Positions 2,489 to 40,907 of a DNA stretch of 40,907 nucleotides are shown here, one piece after another. Source of the stretch: a virus; IMG/VR virus record IMGVR_UViG_3300020152_000041, positions 1-40,907 of that record. The stretch is one strand, 5' to 3'. Below the pieces are notes generated by a model, which was not told the DNA's origin, did no database searches, and worked only from the letters and a program-made list of their open reading frames with translations. Position 1 is the first letter of the stretch. Each line of letters begins with the position of its first letter. The position numbers and the translations under genes were made by a program.

Positions 2489-2929
2489 ATGCCGATCAGC
2501 CCCGCCAACATGCTGCTCTATCCTGGTGGATCGATCCGCTCGCCTGAATGGCTGGCGATCCGCGAGCGCATCCGGCTGCGCGCAGCAAACCGTTGTGAGG
2601 AATGCGGCGTGCCGAACTGGGCAATCGGAGGGCGCGCTCCCGATGGCCGCTTCCTGCCAAATGAACCCAAGGGAACCAAGGGCCTGGGGCTGGACTGGCC
2701 GAGCCCGGGGCAGGACGCCTGGCTGCAGGGCCACCTGGTCAAGATCATCCGCATCGTGTGCACCGTGGCACATGTCGATGGGGCCCTCACTGATCACAGT
2801 GATGCCAACCTGCGCTTCTGGTGCCAGCGTTGCCACAACCGCCATGACGCGCAGCGACGGGCGGCCAACGCTGCCGAGACCCGCCGGCAGCTGCAGGCGA
2901 TCGGCGACCTGCTGGCTGGTGCACCATGA
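2489..2929 (+). CDS. HNH-type zinc-binding nuclease-like protein, 146 aa
   Basis: Two zinc knuckles flank a His-rich core: CEEC at about residues 37-40 and CQRCHNRHD at about 112-120, with AHVDG near residue 95 and an Asn-Leu pair (ANLRFWC) before the second knuckle. This order (CxxC, AHxD, NL, CxxCHxxxD) is that of HNH endonucleases. It is short and has no recognisable DNA-recognition domain, so it may nick DNA in replication or recombination rather than act as a homing enzyme. It lies between the HTH protein and the primase, overlapping the latter by four bases (ATGA). Confidence 0.75.
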   Translation: MPISPANMLLYPGGSIRSPEWLAIRERIRLRAANRCEECGVPNWAIGGRAPDGRFLPNEPKGTKGLGLDWPSPGQDAWLQGHLVKIIRIVCTVAHVDGALTDHSDANLRFWCQRCHNRHDAQRRAANAAETRRQLQAIGDLLAGAP

Positions 2930-4080
2930 CCCGCTTCTCCGTCGCCAAAGACCTGGTGGTGATGAACCTCGGCTCGATCGTGCCGGAGCTGTTCGGCGGC
3001 GGGCCCAAGCAGAGCAAGGAGCTGGCTGGCCGGCGCGGCTGGCAGGTGACCAACAAGTGGCGCCCGGGGGCCGACCTCAGCGAAATGAAGGTGTGGCCCG
3101 GGGGCGCGTTCAAGGACTTCAACAGCGGCGAGAAGGGCGACGCCATGGACCTGGTCGCCTTCGGGCTATCGGGCTTCATCAACAAGGACAGCCGCATGCA
3201 GGCGCTGGACTGGGTGGAGAACCGCTTCGGCATCAAGACCATGCCACCGGGCAAGCTCGAGGAGATCCAGCGCCAGGGCGAGGAACGCCGGGCGCAGATG
3301 GAAGTGGCTGCAGCGGCCGACAACAAGGAAGCCCGGGAGAAGGCGCGCAAGGCCTTCTTTGGCGCGCAGCAGGAGCTCGAGGGCACGCCGGTCGACACCT
3401 ACCTGCGCGGCCGCGGCATCGACCTGCGCGCCATTCCCAACCTCGCCCGGCGATCGTTCCGCTATCGGCCGGACTGCGATTACTGGCCGGCCCGGGAATT
3501 CGGCGCCGGCATCAAGGAGAGATCGTTCCCCGGGCTGCTCAGCGCCATGGTCGACGGCCGCGGGCAGCTGGGCGCGGTGCATTACACGCTGGTGGAGCCG
3601 GACGGTTCGGGCAAGCTCGACACGCTCAGCCGCGGGTGGGTCGACGCGAAGCCGGACGGGCGGATCAAGGGCAAGTCGGCCAAGCTGATGTATCCGGACA
3701 CGCTGGGGCTGGAGATCCGCGTCAGCTTTGGCAGCAGCGGCATGGGCGCCGAAGATGCGGCGGCCAATGGCGTGGTCAGCTGGTTCGGCCATACCGAGGG
3801 CATCGAGGACGCGCTGACGATCGCGCTGGCGGATCCCGAGCTGCGCATGCATGCGGCGGGCTCGCTGAGCGGCTTCCTCTCCGTGCCCGACCATGCGGCG
3901 GCCGAGGGGCACCTGCTGTTCCGCGACAATGACTGGGACAAGCCCCAGGCGGTGGAGCTGTTCGAGCGCGGGCACAGCCATTTCAAGAGTTTCGGCAAGC
4001 CCGTGGAGGTGGTGGCCATGCCCGCCGCCTGGGGCAAGGACGCCAACGATGTTCTCAACTGGAAAGGACCAGGGACATGA
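2926..4080 (+). CDS. Toprim-domain DNA primase, 384 aa
   Basis: The C-terminal part is a Toprim domain: the catalytic Glu lies in TEGIEDA (E291) and the metal-binding Asp pair in FRDNDWD (D334, D336), followed by a typical AWGKDANDVL tail. Residues 57-78 (VWPGGAFKDFNSGEKGDAMD) look like the CHC2 zinc region of bacterial primases but lack the cysteines, as in several phage primases. Between them lies a Glu/Arg-rich helical linker. The protein should make RNA primers and probably works with the P-loop helicase encoded at 5271, in place of a fused primase-helicase. It overlaps both neighbours by four bases. Confidence 0.85.
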   Translation: MTRFSVAKDLVVMNLGSIVPELFGGGPKQSKELAGRRGWQVTNKWRPGADLSEMKVWPGGAFKDFNSGEKGDAMDLVAFGLSGFINKDSRMQALDWVENRFGIKTMPPGKLEEIQRQGEERRAQMEVAAAADNKEAREKARKAFFGAQQELEGTPVDTYLRGRGIDLRAIPNLARRSFRYRPDCDYWPAREFGAGIKERSFPGLLSAMVDGRGQLGAVHYTLVEPDGSGKLDTLSRGWVDAKPDGRIKGKSAKLMYPDTLGLEIRVSFGSSGMGAEDAAANGVVSWFGHTEGIEDALTIALADPELRMHAAGSLSGFLSVPDHAAAEGHLLFRDNDWDKPQAVELFERGHSHFKSFGKPVEVVAMPAAWGKDANDVLNWKGPGT

Positions 4081-5270: not shown

Positions 5271-7157
5271 GTGACCACGACAACTCCCGATATCGAGACA
5301 GGCCAGAAGCGGATCCGCGCCATCACCACGGCGGCGCGGCAGAAGGCGACCATCAAGGCGAAGTCGTCGCCCAAGAAATGGCCGCCCAAGGGCGAGGCCT
5401 ATGAGGGCGTGCTGCCCGGGCAGTGGAAGTTCAAGGGGCCATGGGACGATACCGGGCATCTGCCCGAGGACTGCCCGGTGCGGCCGCTGGGCTATGAGGG
5501 CGAGAATTACTTCGTCGTCGACACGCTGGGCCAGGTGTTCAACACCGGCGACAAGGCCATGGGCGTGGAGCGGCTGCAGAAGCTGTTCGCCGGCCATGAG
5601 GGCTTCCTGACCTGGGCGTGGCCAAGCTTCGCCAAGGAAGGCGTGGTCACCAACTTCAAGGCGGAGGAGGCCCGGCGCGACCTGTTCGCCGCCTGCGCCG
5701 AGCGCGGCCCATGGAACATGACCGACCAGGTGCGCGGCCGCGGCGCCTGGCTCGACGATCGGGGCCGGCTGATCCTGCATTGCGGGGATGTTCTCTACTT
5801 CGACGGCCAGGAGGAGGGGACCGGCGAGCTGGGCGACCACTTCTATGTGCGCCGGCCGAGCGCGATCCGCCCCTGGGAGCACGCGATCGACGACGTCGCC
5901 GACAACCCGGCCGTCGAGATCGTCAATGCGCTGCGCACCTGGAACTTCGTGCGCGGCGACGTCGACGTGATGCTGGCCATGGGCTGGATCGGCGTGGCGC
6001 TGATGGGCGCGGCGCTGGACTGGCGGCCATCGGTGTTCGTGGTGGGTGATGCCGGCAGCGGCAAGTCCGAGCTCAACAAGCTGCTCAAGACCATCATGGG
6101 CCGCTTCATGATCGCCACTACCAATGCGACCTCTGCCGGGCTCTACCAGATCGTTGGGCATGACGCGCTGCCGATCGCGATCGACGAGCTCGAGGGCGAG
6201 GACGGCCAGGACCAGGCGGCGCAGATCATCAAGATGGCGCGCGACGCGGCCTCGGGCTCGATCCGCATCCGCGGCGGCGCCAACCACCAGGGCGTGGAAT
6301 TCCAGGCGCGATCGGCATTCTGGTTTTCGGCGATCAATCCGCCGCCGATCAACCCGGCCTCGATGTCGCGCCTGGCGCTGCTGCAGCTGCGCCCGCTCAG
6401 CGACGCGGCCGCCAAGGTGCCGGCGCTGAAGAACCCGGAGACGATCGGCCCGAAGCTGCTGCGCCTGGTCGCCGACCGCTGGCTGGGCTTTCCCGACCTC
6501 TATGAGGAATATCGGGACGTACTGCGCGCCAATGGCCATGACAGCCGCGGGCAGAACACGTTCGGCACGTTCCTGGCCGCGGCGCATCTGCTGCTGGGCG
6601 ACGAGGGCATGGACGAGGCCAAGCTGCCCTGGGAGAACCTCGAGCACTGGGGCCGCATGCTGGCGGCCGACAGCGCGCCGGAAGTATCGGGCAAGACGGC
6701 GAACTGGGCGCGCTGCATATCCGAGATCCTCACCAGCCAGGTCGACGCGTGGAACAAGGGCGAGCGCCGCACCATCGGCCAGATCCTCGAGGACGTGCTC
6801 GAGGAGAAGGACCTGATGAACCTGGGGAAGGCCAACCAGCTGCTGGCGATCGCCGGGCTCAAGATCATGGAAAAGGGCGTGGTGGGCGAGGGCCTGGGGC
6901 TGTGCGTTCCCAAGGACGGCAAGGATGTCGGCAAGATATTCATGGACAGCAGCTGGGGCGGCAAGGGCGGCACCGGCAGCTGGGGCTGGGCGCTGGCGCA
7001 GGCGCCCGAGCATATCGTGCACAAGAAGGTGCTGATGAAGTCCGGCAAGGGCGACGCGGGCAAGGTGGACAACCGGACGCGCATCGCCGGCGTGCAAAGG
7101 CGGTGCGTGTTTATCAGCCTGGCGGATCTGCGCGCCTGGCAGGATGAGGAGAAGTAG
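5271..7157 (+). CDS. P-loop replicative helicase / VirE-like NTPase, 628 aa
   Basis: A Walker A motif (VVGDAGSGKSEL, residues 257-268) and a Walker B motif (LPIAIDELEGE, about 300-310) are clear, with a sensor-like stretch WFSAINPPPIN about 45 residues further on. The N-terminal 220 residues contain no primase motifs, in line with the separate Toprim primase upstream. The arrangement matches phage helicases of the D5/VirE type that unwind the origin. The start is a GTG after a run of eight T; no strong ribosome site is seen, so the exact start is uncertain. The gene ends 2 bp before a well-formed ribosome site and the next gene. Confidence 0.8.
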   Translation: MTTTTPDIETGQKRIRAITTAARQKATIKAKSSPKKWPPKGEAYEGVLPGQWKFKGPWDDTGHLPEDCPVRPLGYEGENYFVVDTLGQVFNTGDKAMGVERLQKLFAGHEGFLTWAWPSFAKEGVVTNFKAEEARRDLFAACAERGPWNMTDQVRGRGAWLDDRGRLILHCGDVLYFDGQEEGTGELGDHFYVRRPSAIRPWEHAIDDVADNPAVEIVNALRTWNFVRGDVDVMLAMGWIGVALMGAALDWRPSVFVVGDAGSGKSELNKLLKTIMGRFMIATTNATSAGLYQIVGHDALPIAIDELEGEDGQDQAAQIIKMARDAASGSIRIRGGANHQGVEFQARSAFWFSAINPPPINPASMSRLALLQLRPLSDAAAKVPALKNPETIGPKLLRLVADRWLGFPDLYEEYRDVLRANGHDSRGQNTFGTFLAAAHLLLGDEGMDEAKLPWENLEHWGRMLAADSAPEVSGKTANWARCISEILTSQVDAWNKGERRTIGQILEDVLEEKDLMNLGKANQLLAIAGLKIMEKGVVGEGLGLCVPKDGKDVGKIFMDSSWGGKGGTGSWGWALAQAPEHIVHKKVLMKSGKGDAGKVDNRTRIAGVQRRCVFISLADLRAWQDEEK

Positions 7158-7605: not shown

Positions 7606-7880
7606 TGGCTGACGCCCTCGATGACATCGCGGCCGCGATTGCACAGCTGCAGCGGGCCTTCATGCGCCATGGCCTCGAGCCGCCGAAGTCCATCCGCCTG
7701 CCGACGTTCGAAGCCGGCATGAAGGCGCGCCAGGTGCTGCTCTCCTCGCCGAGTGTTTGGCAGAGCGGCAGGGACCTCACGACAGCAACGCGCAGCCTCA
7801 GGATCAACGGCTGCGTGGTCTATTGGCCGACGCAACCGGATGGGTGCAGTTTCCGGGATGAACCACATGGCGCGGGCTAG
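7605..7880 (+). CDS. hypothetical early protein, 91 aa (last gene of early operon)
   Basis: An excellent GGAAGGAG site lies about 8 bp before the ATG at 7605. The first 45 residues form a helix pair; the second half is short strands (SLRINGCVVYWPTQPDGCSF). No motif is recognised. It is the last rightward gene before a 650-bp noncoding region and is followed within 25 bp by three GC-rich inverted repeats, which may end early transcription. Confidence 0.6.
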   Translation: MADALDDIAAAIAQLQRAFMRHGLEPPKSIRLPTFEAGMKARQVLLSSPSVWQSGRDLTTATRSLRINGCVVYWPTQPDGCSFRDEPHGAG

Positions 7881-8191
7881 CCCGGAGGCCGGCTTGGCCG
7901 GCCGACCAGTCCCGATCGGGCGCGCCCAGGCACCGCCTGGGCGAGGTGACGCCTGCCACGATGCGCGAGCTGGGCCGCGATGTCGCGCGTCGCCGGCGCC
8001 GTCGATCGGCTTCCCCATTCCCTCGCCCGCCAGGGCGATGACAAACCTATGCCGGCTGGGCGCAGCCCGGCCGCTTCCGCCTGCCTACCCACACCCCACA
8101 ACAGCATAGAAATCGGCAGTGCCCATGGCCCGCACCCCATCGCAACACTGCCTTCGTCCGCACCCCGGCCCCTTGGGATGCGAATATGGAT

Positions 8192-8200
8192 CGGTTGACG
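8192..8200 (+). promoter_or_regulatory. CGGTTGACG motif, copy 1 (before terminase)
   Basis: TTGACG at 8195-8200 matches a sigma70-type -35 box, but no good -10 box is found at the usual distance. It is the first of five copies of CGGTTGAC, each lying in a gap where a new late transcription unit starts. Here it precedes the terminase gene by about 330 bp. Confidence 0.45.
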
Positions 8201-8238
8201 GCCAGCCGACCCATGCCAGCCTAGTCCATGGCCGATTG

Positions 8239-8490
8239 CTGAGACAGCCACCCGGGTTCGGGGTGTCACACTGTCTCAGCGCTGTCTCAGGCTAACCGGC
8301 TGAACCATAGGGCATAATCGTGATTTGTGACGCAGTGACAGGCGAGACAGCCGATACCCTCACACATACGCGCGCGCGCGCATATGTGACCCTATCCCTT
8401 TGTCTCACTGTCACATGTGTCTTTTTCTCTAAATCGGCCAGCACAATCAAAGGCTTGGCGCTGAGACAGCGCCGAGACAGCCTGAGACAA
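8239..8490. repeat. cluster of eight CTGAGACAG-like sites in both orientations
   Basis: Copies read forward at 8239-8247, 8342-8350 (GCGAGACAG), 8461-8469, 8472-8480 (CCGAGACAG) and 8482-8490 (CTGAGACAA). They read backward (CTGTCTCAG) at 8271-8279 and 8282-8290, and as a partial TGTCTCA at 8401-8407. Several pairs are 10-11 bp apart, one helical turn, so a protein would bind on the same face. This is the arrangement of initiator iterons or of a multi-site operator. The binding protein could be one of the early HTH or DnaA-like products. Confidence 0.7.
8361..8388. other. 28-bp strictly alternating pyrimidine-purine tract (Z-DNA type)
   Basis: Every base from 8361 to 8388 alternates pyrimidine and purine: CA repeats, then (CG)6, then CATATGTG. 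The outer CACATA and TATGTG arms are complementary, so the tract can also form an imperfect cruciform. It lies in the middle of the CTGAGACAG cluster. Such tracts take up negative supercoiling and are found at origins and regulatory regions. Confidence 0.7.
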
Positions 8491-8534
8491 AACCGGGCCG
8501 GCGCAAACCCATTAAATATTCGGAACGGGCTGTG

Positions 8535-9122
8535 ATGGCCGGAAATCCTGACCTTTTCGGCCCGGCTGAGCCCTCCGAAGGGGATGAGGTTGGCACGCCG
8601 TCGGGGTTTTTCGACGCGGTCGCGGCGGCCGGGGAGAAGCGCGGCGCCGGCCGGCCACCTGGTGCGCGCAACCGGAAGACCGAGGCCTTCGAGAAGTGGT
8701 TCTATGCCAGGGGCTATCGCGATCCTGCCCAGGTGCTGGCCGAGATCATCACGATGGACCCGAGGGCGCTGCAGCAGATCGCCCTCGAGGACCGCGTCGC
8801 CAGGGGCGAGCTGCAGCAGCTGGGCACCAAGGACGATCCGATCCAGTCGGTGAGCGTGCCCGGCCTGGTCGAGATCATCGACCTGCAGCGCAAGGCGGCG
8901 ATCGACCTGATGCCCTACCTGCATGGCAAGAAGCCGACCGAGGTGGTGATCACCGATGAGCGCCTGCCCATCCTGGTGGTGGCCAGCGGGACCAACCAGA
9001 TGGCCGAGGCCATGAAGCTGATCGAGGGCCGGGCAGTGCTGTCGATCGGGCAACCGCTCCAGGGCGACCAGGTCGGGGCCGAAGCCAGCGAAATCAACGA
9101 CTTAGCGGAGGGCGAGAGGTGA
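8535..9122 (+). CDS. terS: terminase small subunit, 195 aa
   Basis: It lies first in the late block, 391 bp before the large subunit. The N-terminal part is basic and Gly/Pro-rich (GEKRGAGRPPGARNRKTEAF), a common start of podoviral small terminases, and the middle is helical (DLQRKAAIDLMPYLHGKKP, as in related proteins). It should bind the packaging site and bring in the large subunit. I chose the ATG at 8535; a GTG directly before it is also possible. The ribosome site is weak. The assignment rests mainly on position and this N-terminal pattern. Confidence 0.75.
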   Translation: MAGNPDLFGPAEPSEGDEVGTPSGFFDAVAAAGEKRGAGRPPGARNRKTEAFEKWFYARGYRDPAQVLAEIITMDPRALQQIALEDRVARGELQQLGTKDDPIQSVSVPGLVEIIDLQRKAAIDLMPYLHGKKPTEVVITDERLPILVVASGTNQMAEAMKLIEGRAVLSIGQPLQGDQVGAEASEINDLAEGER

Positions 9123-36568: not shown

Positions 36569-36813
36569 GGCGCCGCCTCGATAAACTCGAACCAGCCGTC
36601 GTTGTCACCAAAGCGCACGACAGGGCTGATGCCGCAGCAAGAGCAGACGTCAAAGATGATGGTACTGGTTGCATTGGCCTTGCGTTCGACCCTGCCGAGC
36701 GCCCCAACGGGCACAACAGCCTGCGACGTCACGCATTCCCGCAGCAGGCGTACCTTCTTGCGGAGCCAATCCTTCTTTTTCTTCGGCGGTTGGACGTCAA
36801 CCCACTGGCTCAT
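36565..36813 (-). CDS. hypothetical protein with CxCC motif, 82 aa
   Basis: The gene begins in an ATGA overlap with the integrase stop. The N-terminus is highly basic (PPKKKKDWLRKKVRLLRE), and a VCSCCG motif at about residues 58-63 may bind a metal. The C-terminus is acidic and strand-like (VVRFGDNDGWFEFIEAAP). Codons are less GC-rich than those of the integrase. No family is recognised. Confidence 0.62.
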   Translation of the reverse strand: MSQWVDVQPPKKKKDWLRKKVRLLRECVTSQAVVPVGALGRVERKANATSTIIFDVCSCCGISPVVRFGDNDGWFEFIEAAP

Positions 36814-38135
36814 TTCGCTTCTCCCTGTACTTCATACCAGGCGACCAGCTTGGCGATGGCCGAGCGGGCGAGCTCGGGATGCATGCCCAGGTAGTGCTTG
36901 AGGACCGAATTGATGGTCTCGAGGCTGTGGCCGGTGATGGCGGCGATCTGCGGAATGCTGCATTCGGCCAGGGCCAGCCAGGTGATGGCGGTATCGCGCA
37001 GGTCCTGGTCGTGGAAATCGGCCAGGGACGGCATGGGGGCAATGGTGACGACGTCGCCGGTGCCGGCATGGCGCGCGGGGACCAGCGGGCCCTTGCGGCC
37101 GCCCTTGAGGCGGGAATGGACCATGCCGGTGGCGGCGAAGCTGCGCACCTGGGCGAAGACCTTGACGTACCAGTCGGTCTTGAAGGGCGCACGCGCCACT
37201 TCATCGACGATGAGCTGGGGATAGGTGACCTTCCAGTGGCGCCGGCGATGGCGCATGGCCGCGAGGCGCGCCCGCAGCTCGGGGGCAGGCGGCACCACGA
37301 TGGGCTGGCCATGCTTCTTGTGCTGGCGGAAGGTGATGCCCTGGGAGCTTTCCTCGGCCTCGGAAATGGCGAGGCGATCGTTCTGGCGCTGGGCGGTCCA
37401 GACGCCCAGGGTGATGCTGTCGCCGATTTCGGGGCGGCCCAGCAGATCGGCCGCGCGGATCAGCTGCAGGATCTCCGCCTTTTCGCCGATGCGGATCCGC
37501 GGCGCCGCCGTGGGCAGGGTGTGGCCGCTATCCTTGAAGGCGTGCTGGCCCTTGAAGTTGCGCTCGGCTATGGCCCAGGTGAACATGGCCGACGCGGCGG
37601 CGCGCGCCTTGCGGGTGGAGGCGAGGCCATGCTTGACCTCGATGCGGTCGAGCACGCCGGCCATGATCGAGGCCGTCAGGGCGGCGGCCGGCGCATTCCA
37701 GATGCGGCCATTGTCGAGCGTCTCGAAGCGGCGGGCGCCCTGGGCGTAATTCTTGACAGTATTGGTGGCCAGCGGCCGGCGTTCCTTCCTGCCCTCGACG
37801 ACGGTCTTGCCGCGCATGCGGGGCTGGGCGAGGAAGGCCTCGAACAGCTGGCCCAGGGTTTCGTGGCCGGGGACGCGGCGCAGCTGGCGAGCCTGTTTCG
37901 GGGTGGCGCCGGCGAGCTGGTCAATCAGGGCCTGGCGATCCCGGCTCCAGGCGATCGCCTCCTCGAGGGAGAACCAGCGGCCGTCGGGATGGCGCAGGTC
38001 CTCACCCTTCATCGAGAAGGGCGGCCGGCGCAGGCGCGGCCCGGGCGAAAAGCGCGGGCGCATGGTGCTGACATCATCGCGCTCGATGCGCAGGGTGATC
38101 AGCGGGATCTGGATGGTGGCTTTGCCCATGAACAT
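36810..38135 (-). CDS. int: tyrosine recombinase integrase, 441 aa
   Basis: The C-terminal catalytic domain shows Arg I (TAQRQNDRL, R250), a beta-hairpin Lys region (RQHKKHGQPIVVP), box II (HDQDLRDTA, R380), TGH (H403) and the nucleophile Tyr (LKHYLG, Y415). In box II the usual His three before Arg is Gln (Q377); the His is two residues earlier. A SAM-like core-binding domain precedes it, and the N-terminus is an arm-binding region. It inserts the phage into, and with an excisionase removes it from, the host chromosome. The start may also be the ATG at 38129. attP lies about 2.5 kb away. Confidence 0.88.
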   Translation of the reverse strand: MFMGKATIQIPLITLRIERDDVSTMRPRFSPGPRLRRPPFSMKGEDLRHPDGRWFSLEEAIAWSRDRQALIDQLAGATPKQARQLRRVPGHETLGQLFEAFLAQPRMRGKTVVEGRKERRPLATNTVKNYAQGARRFETLDNGRIWNAPAAALTASIMAGVLDRIEVKHGLASTRKARAAASAMFTWAIAERNFKGQHAFKDSGHTLPTAAPRIRIGEKAEILQLIRAADLLGRPEIGDSITLGVWTAQRQNDRLAISEAEESSQGITFRQHKKHGQPIVVPPAPELRARLAAMRHRRRHWKVTYPQLIVDEVARAPFKTDWYVKVFAQVRSFAATGMVHSRLKGGRKGPLVPARHAGTGDVVTIAPMPSLADFHDQDLRDTAITWLALAECSIPQIAAITGHSLETINSVLKHYLGMHPELARSAIAKLVAWYEVQGEAK

Positions 38136-38171
38136 TCTCGGGATGCTCCGCGCAGCTGGTGAAGGGAAAAG

Positions 38172-38214
38172 GCCCGGCGGGTACGCTGGCGGGAGGTAAG
38201 CCATCCCGCCGGGC
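38172..38214 (-). terminator. leftward hairpin after the 61-aa gene
   Basis: On the minus strand GCCCGGCGGG and CCCGCCGGGC form a perfect 10-bp stem with a 23-base loop, followed by CTTTTCCCTTCACC. It is a weak intrinsic terminator or attenuator that lowers transcription into the integrase. Confidence 0.55.
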
Positions 38215-38248
38215 TTAGACGGCTGCCGAGGGGCAGCAGCCGAATGGG

Positions 38249-38434
38249 TCAAACCAGTTCGTATTCCACCCCGTCCTCCGTGACGGCGACGGTGGGCGCG
38301 GTGGCGATGGCAGGGCCGTGGATCTCGATCACCCTGGTGACGGTTACGGCATCGCCGGAGCTGTTGGTGCCAAAGACGGTGATGGCGGCGCCGGAGCGCT
38401 TGGCATGCCAGTTGGTCAGTCGTGTACGGCCCAT
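38249..38434 (-). CDS. small beta-rich protein, 61 aa
   Basis: It has an excellent GAGAGGAGG site before the ATG. The product is short and strand-rich (AAITVFGTNSSGDAVTVTRV) with a basic first helix (GRTRLTNWHAKRSG). It may be a small regulator or an RNA-binding protein. The gene is isolated by hairpins on both sides, so its transcript may be more abundant than that of int. Function unknown. Confidence 0.62.
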   Translation of the reverse strand: MGRTRLTNWHAKRSGAAITVFGTNSSGDAVTVTRVIEIHGPAIATAPTVAVTEDGVEYELV

Positions 38435-39263: not shown

Positions 39264-39890
39264 TTAAGACGCTAGTGGCAAACGAGGACGGATGGCGGCG
39301 ATCACCACCCCTCGAATGAGCACCCGATCATCCACCGGGATGGGGCGAAGGTATTCGCGCTGGTCCGACGCGCCCATGAGATAGGGCGGGTAATACACCC
39401 GGAACGCAGTTTCCGGATTACCCATGCGATCGAAGACCTGGGCGCAGACGACGTCGCCAGCGCCGGGCATGGCATTGAGATCGACCATCAGCACATCGCC
39501 CGGGAGATAGCCCAGGTTCTCGATGGCCCGATTGTGCAGGATCCAAGCATCCACGGCGTTCTGGCCGGCCTTGGCAGCCTGCACCATGCGCGCCACCGTC
39601 GGATCGGCGGCGTTGTCGTTCAGCGGTTCGGCTTCGCGCTCGGTGAAGCCCTGCGGGATCTGCGCGCGGCTGTTCTCGTAGTGCGGGATCGGCGAGACCG
39701 CCAGAAGCTTGGCCACCGTGTCGGTGTCGAGCTTCTTGCTGCTGGTCGTGTCATTGGTGAAGCGTGACAGGGTTGCATGGGAGACGCCGGCGCGACGCGC
39801 GAGCTCGGACTGCGACCAGCCCGTCTCTTCGTAAATCGCTTGCAGCCAGGCCTGCTGCTTTCGCCGCACGTTTTCCACGAGCCGGAGCAT
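39264..39890 (-). CDS. CI-type repressor with degenerate S24 domain, 208 aa
   Basis: The N-terminal third is an XRE helix-turn-helix (GWSQSELARRAGVSHATLSR). The C-terminal half has the LexA/S24 fold pattern (LGYLPGDVLMVDLNAMPGAG, then VVCAQVFDRMG). However, the serine-methionine normally found just before the PGD loop is absent (Asn-Leu instead), and the Lys position has Arg (ETAFRVYY). Self-cleavage is therefore not expected. It should keep the prophage silent. GTG/ATG starts at 39917 and 39914 are possible; I prefer 39890 because the operator would otherwise lie in the coding sequence. Confidence 0.8.
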   Translation of the reverse strand: MLRLVENVRRKQQAWLQAIYEETGWSQSELARRAGVSHATLSRFTNDTTSSKKLDTDTVAKLLAVSPIPHYENSRAQIPQGFTEREAEPLNDNAADPTVARMVQAAKAGQNAVDAWILHNRAIENLGYLPGDVLMVDLNAMPGAGDVVCAQVFDRMGNPETAFRVYYPPYLMGASDQREYLRPIPVDDRVLIRGVVIAAIRPRLPLAS

Positions 39891-39992
39891 AGGACGCGTC
39901 ACTCTACAAAACATCACGTGACAAAATGCTTGACGACGTTACCCAAATCACAAGATCGGTAACAACACAACCGATGCGCGTGGTGACTTTGC
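39891..39992. promoter_or_regulatory. divergent repressor/Cro control region
   Basis: The gap holds ATCACGTGAC (39913-39922), a TTGACG box (39930-39935) for rightward transcription, and the inverted repeat GTTACC-14-GGTAAC (39938-39963). The sites match those in front of the AlpA-like gene. The arrangement is that of a lambda-like switch between lysogeny and lytic growth. Confidence 0.65.
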
Positions 39993-40400: not shown

Positions 40401-40907
40401 ATGACCACCGAAGCCCTCAATCCATCCGTCGACCCTATCCGCCTGGCCGAAATCACTGTCCTGTCCCATGGCAAGCACCGCTCGGCCGAAGAGGGCATGT
40501 GCGCCATGGAGGCCGCCAGCTTCATCGCCGGCGAGCCCTTCTCGGATCATCCGCAATGCGTCTGCCCGGTGATCGCCGCGTTTATGCGGACCTGGAATGA
40601 CCGCCTGCCGGACGAATTGCGCACCGAGGTCATTCTCCCGCTGATCCCCAAAATGATCCGCTCAACGGCCTCGCACGCGACGCAGGTGCGTCGCGCCTAT
40701 GCGCTCGCGGACGGTGCCGTGCGCGTTTTCGCGCCCGCAGCACTGCGTGCGGCCGGAGTAATTGGGTCCGCCGAGACCCTGGAGGCCCTGCCGGAAATCG
40801 TCGATGCGACGACAGCGTCTCGTGCCGCCCGTGCCGCCGCTGCCGCCGCCGCCTATGCCGCCGCCCGTGCCGCCGCCGATGCCGCCGCCGCCGATGCCGC
40901 CGCCGCC
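40401..40907 (+). CDS. Ala-rich protein, N-terminal part (continues at base 2)
   Basis: An AGGAG site lies 7 bp before the ATG. The first 130 residues look like a normal folded protein (LAEITVLSHGKHRSAEEGMC; FMRTWNDRLPDELRTEVILP), similar to proteins found in actinophages and other temperate phages. Then comes an Ala-rich repeat (RAAADAAAADAAAA) in which the contig ends. The rest lies at 2-184. In total it has at least 229 residues. The function is unknown. Confidence 0.75.
   Translation, partial: MTTEALNPSVDPIRLAEITVLSHGKHRSAEEGMCAMEAASFIAGEPFSDHPQCVCPVIAAFMRTWNDRLPDELRTEVILPLIPKMIRSTASHATQVRRAYALADGAVRVFAPAALRAAGVIGSAETLEALPEIVDATTASRAARAAAAAAAYAAARAAADAAAADAAAA

Follow-up and report, generated by a model that had tools for sequence, protein, structure and literature searches.

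At 8239–8490 of the viral record analysed here, a stretch of 40,907 nucleotides taken at its full length and called the window below, lies a patch of short repeats, which raises the question of what the patch does and which protein reads it. The record is that of a temperate phage with terminase, portal, head and tail genes, an integrase (36810–38252, minus strand) and a repressor-like gene (39264–39917, minus strand). Megablast of the first 20 kb of the window against named phages gave no match. A sequence-only reading had proposed the patch as a replication origin.

The repeat array and its surroundings

All six exact copies of TGAGACA in the 40.9-kb record (40,907 bases), and all four of CTGAGACAG, fall within the patch. 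The GAGACA core occurs there eight times, in both orientations, against four times in the rest of the 40.9 kb; the expectation for a region this long is 0.026 copies, with a Poisson probability that underflowed to 0. The region is non-coding, with replication genes on one side and the gene of the terminase small subunit (terS) on the other, so that the eight-site, bidirectional, noncoding cluster first described is borne out. It had also been noted that no other intergenic region carries a comparable cluster, and this stands: a hexamer-cluster scan of the window found nothing to match the array outside a coding repeat, the only tie being eight copies of GCGGCA at 1–260, in an alanine-codon tandem repeat.

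When up to two mismatches were allowed, ten sites were found, at 8239, 8333, 8342, 8461, 8472 and 8482 on the plus strand and at 8271, 8282, 8400 and 8408 on the minus strand. They were placed on a twelve-site grid seen in relatives, several positions of which are degenerate in the window. Site search and grid comparison identified an extra flanking site, CTGAGACAG, at 8239–8247 (plus). The outer-left cluster (8264–8290, minus) comprises 8271–8279, 8282–8290 and, by the grid in relatives, a degenerate TGTCACA at 8264–8270, and the inner-left cluster (8324–8350, plus) runs in 9-bp steps through 8324–8332 and 8333–8341 (degenerate) to 8342–8350. At the centre (8361–8388) lies a perfect alternating pyrimidine-purine tract of 28 nt, CACACATACGCGCGCGCGCGCATATGTG, which is melting- or Z-prone and is the only such tract of at least 16 nt in the window. 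The inner-right cluster (8400–8424, minus) holds 8400–8408, 8408–8416 and a degenerate 8416–8424, and the outer-right cluster (8461–8490, plus) holds CTGAGACAG at 8461, CCGAGACAG at 8472 and CTGAGACAA at 8482. The spacer at 8417–8460 is a candidate unwinding element, AT-rich in most relatives but only mildly so here. The spacing of about 10–11 bp initially given for the sites applies to the outer clusters, whereas the inner ones are spaced at 8–9 bp. Similarly, the AT-rich run at 8511–8520, which had been counted among the origin parts, is conserved among some members of the main clade, but the AT-rich stretches common to the array design sit elsewhere, between the inner and outer clusters.

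The array adjoins terS (8532–9122, plus, GTG start), which was assigned from its homologues in relatives and its position before the terminase large subunit gene. On the other side, alignment revealed a block, ACCCCGGCCCC...GGTTGAC (8162–8199, plus, with GGTTGAC at 8193–8199), which is -35-like, points towards terS and is nearly invariant across the main clade; this CCCCGACCC-GGTTGAC block is a candidate promoter or cos-like element. A GC-rich, hairpin-rich non-coding stretch at 7880–8030 is also present in the related locus L018, which lies on the same contig as L006. An RNA element at the array found no support: 7700–8700 had no Rfam match, and a tRNA search found none.

Array design and gene neighbourhood in relatives

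A search with the terminase large subunit gave six relatives, and helicase searches then covered genomes, prophages and viral contigs. TGAGACA is not conserved as a word among them, so each genome's own repeat was looked for, and each was found to have one in the same place. Roughly 140 prophages, phages and plasmids share the layout but differ in site sequence, the words changing whole from genome to genome (TAGACAG, GAGACAG, GGGACAC, GGTACAC, TAGGCAG, GTAGCAG and more, together with GGTTACA, GGTAACG, GGTTCTG and TGGAACG). The nominal design consists of four clusters and twelve sites with dyad symmetry around an alternating centre: most loci of the main family have 11–13 sites, ordered as three minus, three plus, a central gap, three minus and three plus, and in distant loci the orientation of the outer-left cluster varies. 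Where the array was called clearly, in 93 viral loci, the medians are 11 sites, a span of 236 bp and a centre gap of 61 bp, the centre lies a median of at most 5 bp from the array midpoint, and the longest central alternating purine-pyrimidine run averages 18.7 nt, against 6.1 nt in shuffled centres. Several GC-rich loci scored no clear array. In the stretches read, each locus has one array.

In L019 and L040, within the first 600 bp after the helicase, and in L020, small inserted modules resembling antitoxin or cargo genes separate the helicase from the array, which remains intact, as does terS.

In the main clade the array lies between terS, less than 60 bp away, and the gene of an initiator-type SF3/D5-like helicase, and proximity there cannot decide which of the two is its partner. 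The position next to terS would suit a packaging site, a cosB- or pac-like region bound by the small terminase subunit (TerS), with cleavage either at the centre or within the CCCCGACCC-GGTTGAC block; lambda-type phages have their cos sites at the corresponding place. Four loci point the same way and count against linkage to the helicase, since in L086, L092, L094 and L097 the array adjoins terS and is 2–6 kb from the helicase. The wider sample favours the helicase. In the window its gene (5271–7157, plus, 628 aa) ends 1.1 kb upstream of the array, and in most loci the array is downstream of it, directly or within about 1–3 kb; of 114 loci, 79 have a hexamer cluster of at least nine copies in the 4.5 kb downstream of the helicase, and on the upstream side such a cluster was seen in 6 of 103. 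The layout recurs, with many site sequences, beside homologous helicases down to roughly 20–30% identity. In L100–L102 the array starts a few bases after the helicase stop codon and the terminase pair, of an unrelated type, is at least 2 kb downstream, and in L109, where the array follows the helicase, the 12 kb read contain no recognisable terminase.

The array is likewise carried, with no homologous terS beside it, by two Arsenophonus nasoniae linear plasmids (7869 and 8190 bp). In both, twelve sites (4+2|2+4) come immediately after a helicase homologue, the only gene on these plasmids recognisable as a replication protein; the site word is GTAACA on the first plasmid and ATTACA on the second. 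From these plasmids, from L100–L102 and L109 and from the downstream hexamer clusters, the helicase is, on comparative evidence, the common partner of the array, also in loci that have an unrelated terminase or lack one. The plasmids themselves are paPv15 and paNv_CH14 (L300 and L302); a protelomerase on one of these 8-kb molecules and a terminase small subunit on the other suggest that they are reduced relatives of telomere phages.

The same loci bear on a second alternative, that the array is an operator for a repressor or activator of the late or terS promoter (GGTTGAC), with no role in replication. The array does lie between terS and a conserved promoter-like element just upstream, but L100–L102 lack that element 3′ of the helicase, and twelve symmetric sites far exceed what operators usually have. 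The repressor of the window, moreover, has homologues in only 18 of 25 relatives.

Covariation between helicase and site

The helicase of the window matched PHROG families annotated as 'DNA primase' or of unknown function, and a Pfam search found no family for it. Searching the PDB sequences with a helicase profile yielded a weak P-loop match only, so a fold search was needed. With an AF2 model (pLDDT 84.8) as the query, Foldseek retrieved the poxvirus D5/E5 proteins (E about 1e-8), the SaPI5 primase-helicase (7ola, 1.9e-7) and SCCmec Cch (5dgk, TMq 0.40), and at the fold level the protein is predicted to be an AAA+, putatively self-loading initiator helicase of the D5/DUF927 type. Its assignment draws on PHROG, AF2, Foldseek and the covariation described here. 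In the model, residues 602–605 and 608–616 form a beta-hairpin (602–616) within the C-terminal domain (about 480–628), and R604 and Q609 flank its turn.

For an initial set of 50 non-redundant helicases, similarity between site words was compared with similarity between helicase stretches, controlling for the helicase core. The partial r with site similarity was about 0.40 for the last 58 residues and at most 0.26 for all other stretches. Aligning the C-termini revealed that residue 604 is basic where the site word begins with G and Thr or Ser where it begins with T. When the columns of the helicase, TerS, the large terminase subunit, primase and portal were scanned, perfect separation was found only at 604 (22/22 versus 26/26; 48/48 in the first set for non-T versus T), the next-best column anywhere in the scan reaching 0.87.

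Because the pattern had been spotted by eye, the rule for residue 604 was written down before further loci were fetched. The later loci were restricted to those with unambiguous xxGACA words and a helicase under 80% identical to any in the first set. Residue 604 was Lys or Arg in 8 of 8 G-first loci and Thr or Ser in 4 of 4 T-first loci. Five further loci had A-first words, a class not foreseen, with Thr or Tyr at 604; 'non-basic means T' therefore failed and was widened to T or A. Lys or Arg at 604 coincides exactly with G as the first site base in 50 of 50 loci, and on a tree of the helicase core only, base and residue each switch seven times, at the same places. The sister locus L018, whose helicase is 79% identical, has Ser at 604 and the site TAGACAG. 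The Arsenophonus pair has Lys at 604 with GTAACA and Phe with ATTACA. Residue 609, noticed post hoc, is Gln in all 41 loci with A as the second base and Ser, Arg, Pro or Glu in the 8 others. Exceptions lie outside the GACA-type words (L132, L137, L285 and L289/L291), where the motif register is uncertain. Taken together, the covariation indicates that the C-terminal domain of the helicase sets site specificity.

No column of the terminase, the portal, the primase or the 787–1059 protein fits the site as well as helicase residue 604. The best TerS column reaches 0.81 against 1.0, and with the covariation in the helicase and the array standing beside unrelated or absent terminases, a TerS-bound packaging site as the sole function was rejected; we leave the packaging explanation a small chance. 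For an operator, with covariation again in the helicase, the chance appears slim indeed. Either of them as the sole function is unlikely, and a packaging or regulatory role may overlap the origin. A telomere-resolution or partition site, a palindrome like telRL or parS, is barely credible. In its favour, dyad symmetry and a CGCGCG core resemble telRL, and protelomerase-bearing linear plasmids occur among the relatives. Against it, the relatives show no conserved perfect palindrome at the centre, which does not fit telRL; members of the main family reside as prophages in large contigs; integrated prophages that have the array but neither protelomerase nor ParB genes appear to make up most of the relatives; and the covariation is with the helicase.

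Two other proteins had been suggested as binders. The product of 1688–2488 is nearly private to the window: among 25 close relatives, a single one has a homologue. The small HTH-like protein encoded at 787–1059 is conserved in all 25 close relatives examined, but its best column reaches only 0.67 against 1.0 for the helicase; it showed no covariation with the iterons and no Pfam or PHROG match, and is a possible replication accessory. The suggestion of a DnaA-like system was not supported either, as no DnaA box (TTATNCACA) was found near 8.2–8.5 kb at up to one mismatch, which sets the array apart from DnaA-dependent origins of the oriC type. The GC-skew check proposed for the origin showed no switch at 8.4 kb; it was uninformative and lends the origin no support.

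Proposed initiation at the array and its known counterparts

The original proposal of an origin is strongly supported by the comparison, through the linkage to the helicase, the array on small plasmids and the covariation of helicase and site, and the array is very probably where replication starts. The fold matches, together with the literature on SaPI Rep, Cch2 and P4 alpha, make this the best reading: we put at about 0.9 the probability that the array is the phage's replication origin, read by its own SF3/D5-like initiator helicase through the mechanism proposed here. The helicase would use the beta-hairpin wing in its C-terminal domain to bind the iterons (here GAGACAG), with G1 most likely contacted by Arg604 and A2 by Gln609. 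Its monomers would gather on the dyad grid, nominally of twelve sites (3 + 3 | centre | 3 + 3), in numbers sufficient for two hexamers, which would form across the dyad facing opposite ways. The DNA would then open at the alternating pyrimidine-purine centre or at the AT-rich spacers, and the two helicases would unwind it in both directions. Synthesis would be started, with the host polymerase, by the primase of the same operon (2926–4080, plus), which has DUF7146 and Toprim_3 domains (Pfam PF23639 and, weakly, PF13362; PHROG 510).

By analogy, the array would work like the initiator-helicase origins of SaPI and P4. SaPI origins consist of two iteron sets flanking an AT-rich region. The C-terminal domain of SaPI Rep, which apparently acts as two hexamers, reads iterons directly downstream of the rep gene, and that of SCCmec Cch2 also binds iterons (PMC7581432). 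As with SaPI Rep and Cch, the phage has an AAA+ D5/Cch-type helicase by the probable origin, iterons downstream of it and, as the covariation suggests, recognition by the C-terminal domain. The sequence similarity of these helicases to that of the phage is, however, negligible (10–12%). Unlike SaPI, the array has four clusters and nominally twelve sites around a GC-rich alternating centre, rather than the two iteron sets and one AT-rich region by which the SaPI type is defined, and it is carried mainly by temperate phages of alphaproteobacteria, which encode their Toprim primase separately. The P4 origin needs a second element, crr. In P4 alpha, the winged-helix domain of the primase-helicase binds origin repeats, after which the protein unwinds and primes (PMC4234260), primase and helicase being fused (PMC7145576). 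The phage array shares with it the repeats at the origin and the logic of an initiator that is itself a helicase, but primase and helicase are separate genes in most members, although L109 appears to carry both, and no crr-like second element was seen in the stretches read. With the two-set layout of SaPI and the fusion and crr of P4 lacking, we did not assign the array to either family.

Other origins are less close. The SF3-type helicases SV40 large T and papillomavirus E1 load on symmetric short sites as a double hexamer. Their N-terminal domain binds the origin (PMC7581432), and the number and arrangement of the sites differ from those of the array. Repeated short sites with AT-rich DNA also recall the origins of iteron plasmids and of lambda, but there the candidate binder differs from ours, which is predicted to be the helicase itself. 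Iteron plasmid Rep and lambda O are initiators that are not helicases and recruit host DnaB.

The four-cluster grid, the alternating centre and the residue-base code appear to be undescribed in the searchable, non-subscription literature. Whether they mark a widespread origin class of their own, with a fixed twelve-site dyad grid as a stoichiometric platform for two hexamers, a readable wing code (K/R604 with G1, T/S/Y604 with T/A1 and Q609 with A2, with repeated in-step switches) and predictable compatibility groups, we consider an even bet. On the main reading, a repeat patch in an anonymous phage becomes an origin family with a named initiator, fixed geometry and a testable residue-to-base code. 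Origins and compatibility groups could then be predicted in many uncultured phages and phage-plasmids, and a natural series of matched initiators and origins would be at hand to study how one helicase manages both recognition and opening of DNA, and whether twelve sites count two hexamers.

Both ends of the record (1–106 and 40812–40907 of the window) lie in the same GCC-GCC-type alanine-codon tandem repeat; the phage thus probably has a circular or permuted genome, which was opened within a repetitive gene. The same helicase is also found in two circular phage-plasmids, L298 (Leisingera, 39 kb) and L299 (Phaeobacter, 40 kb), where degenerate GTAACG/GAAACG arrays adjoin it.
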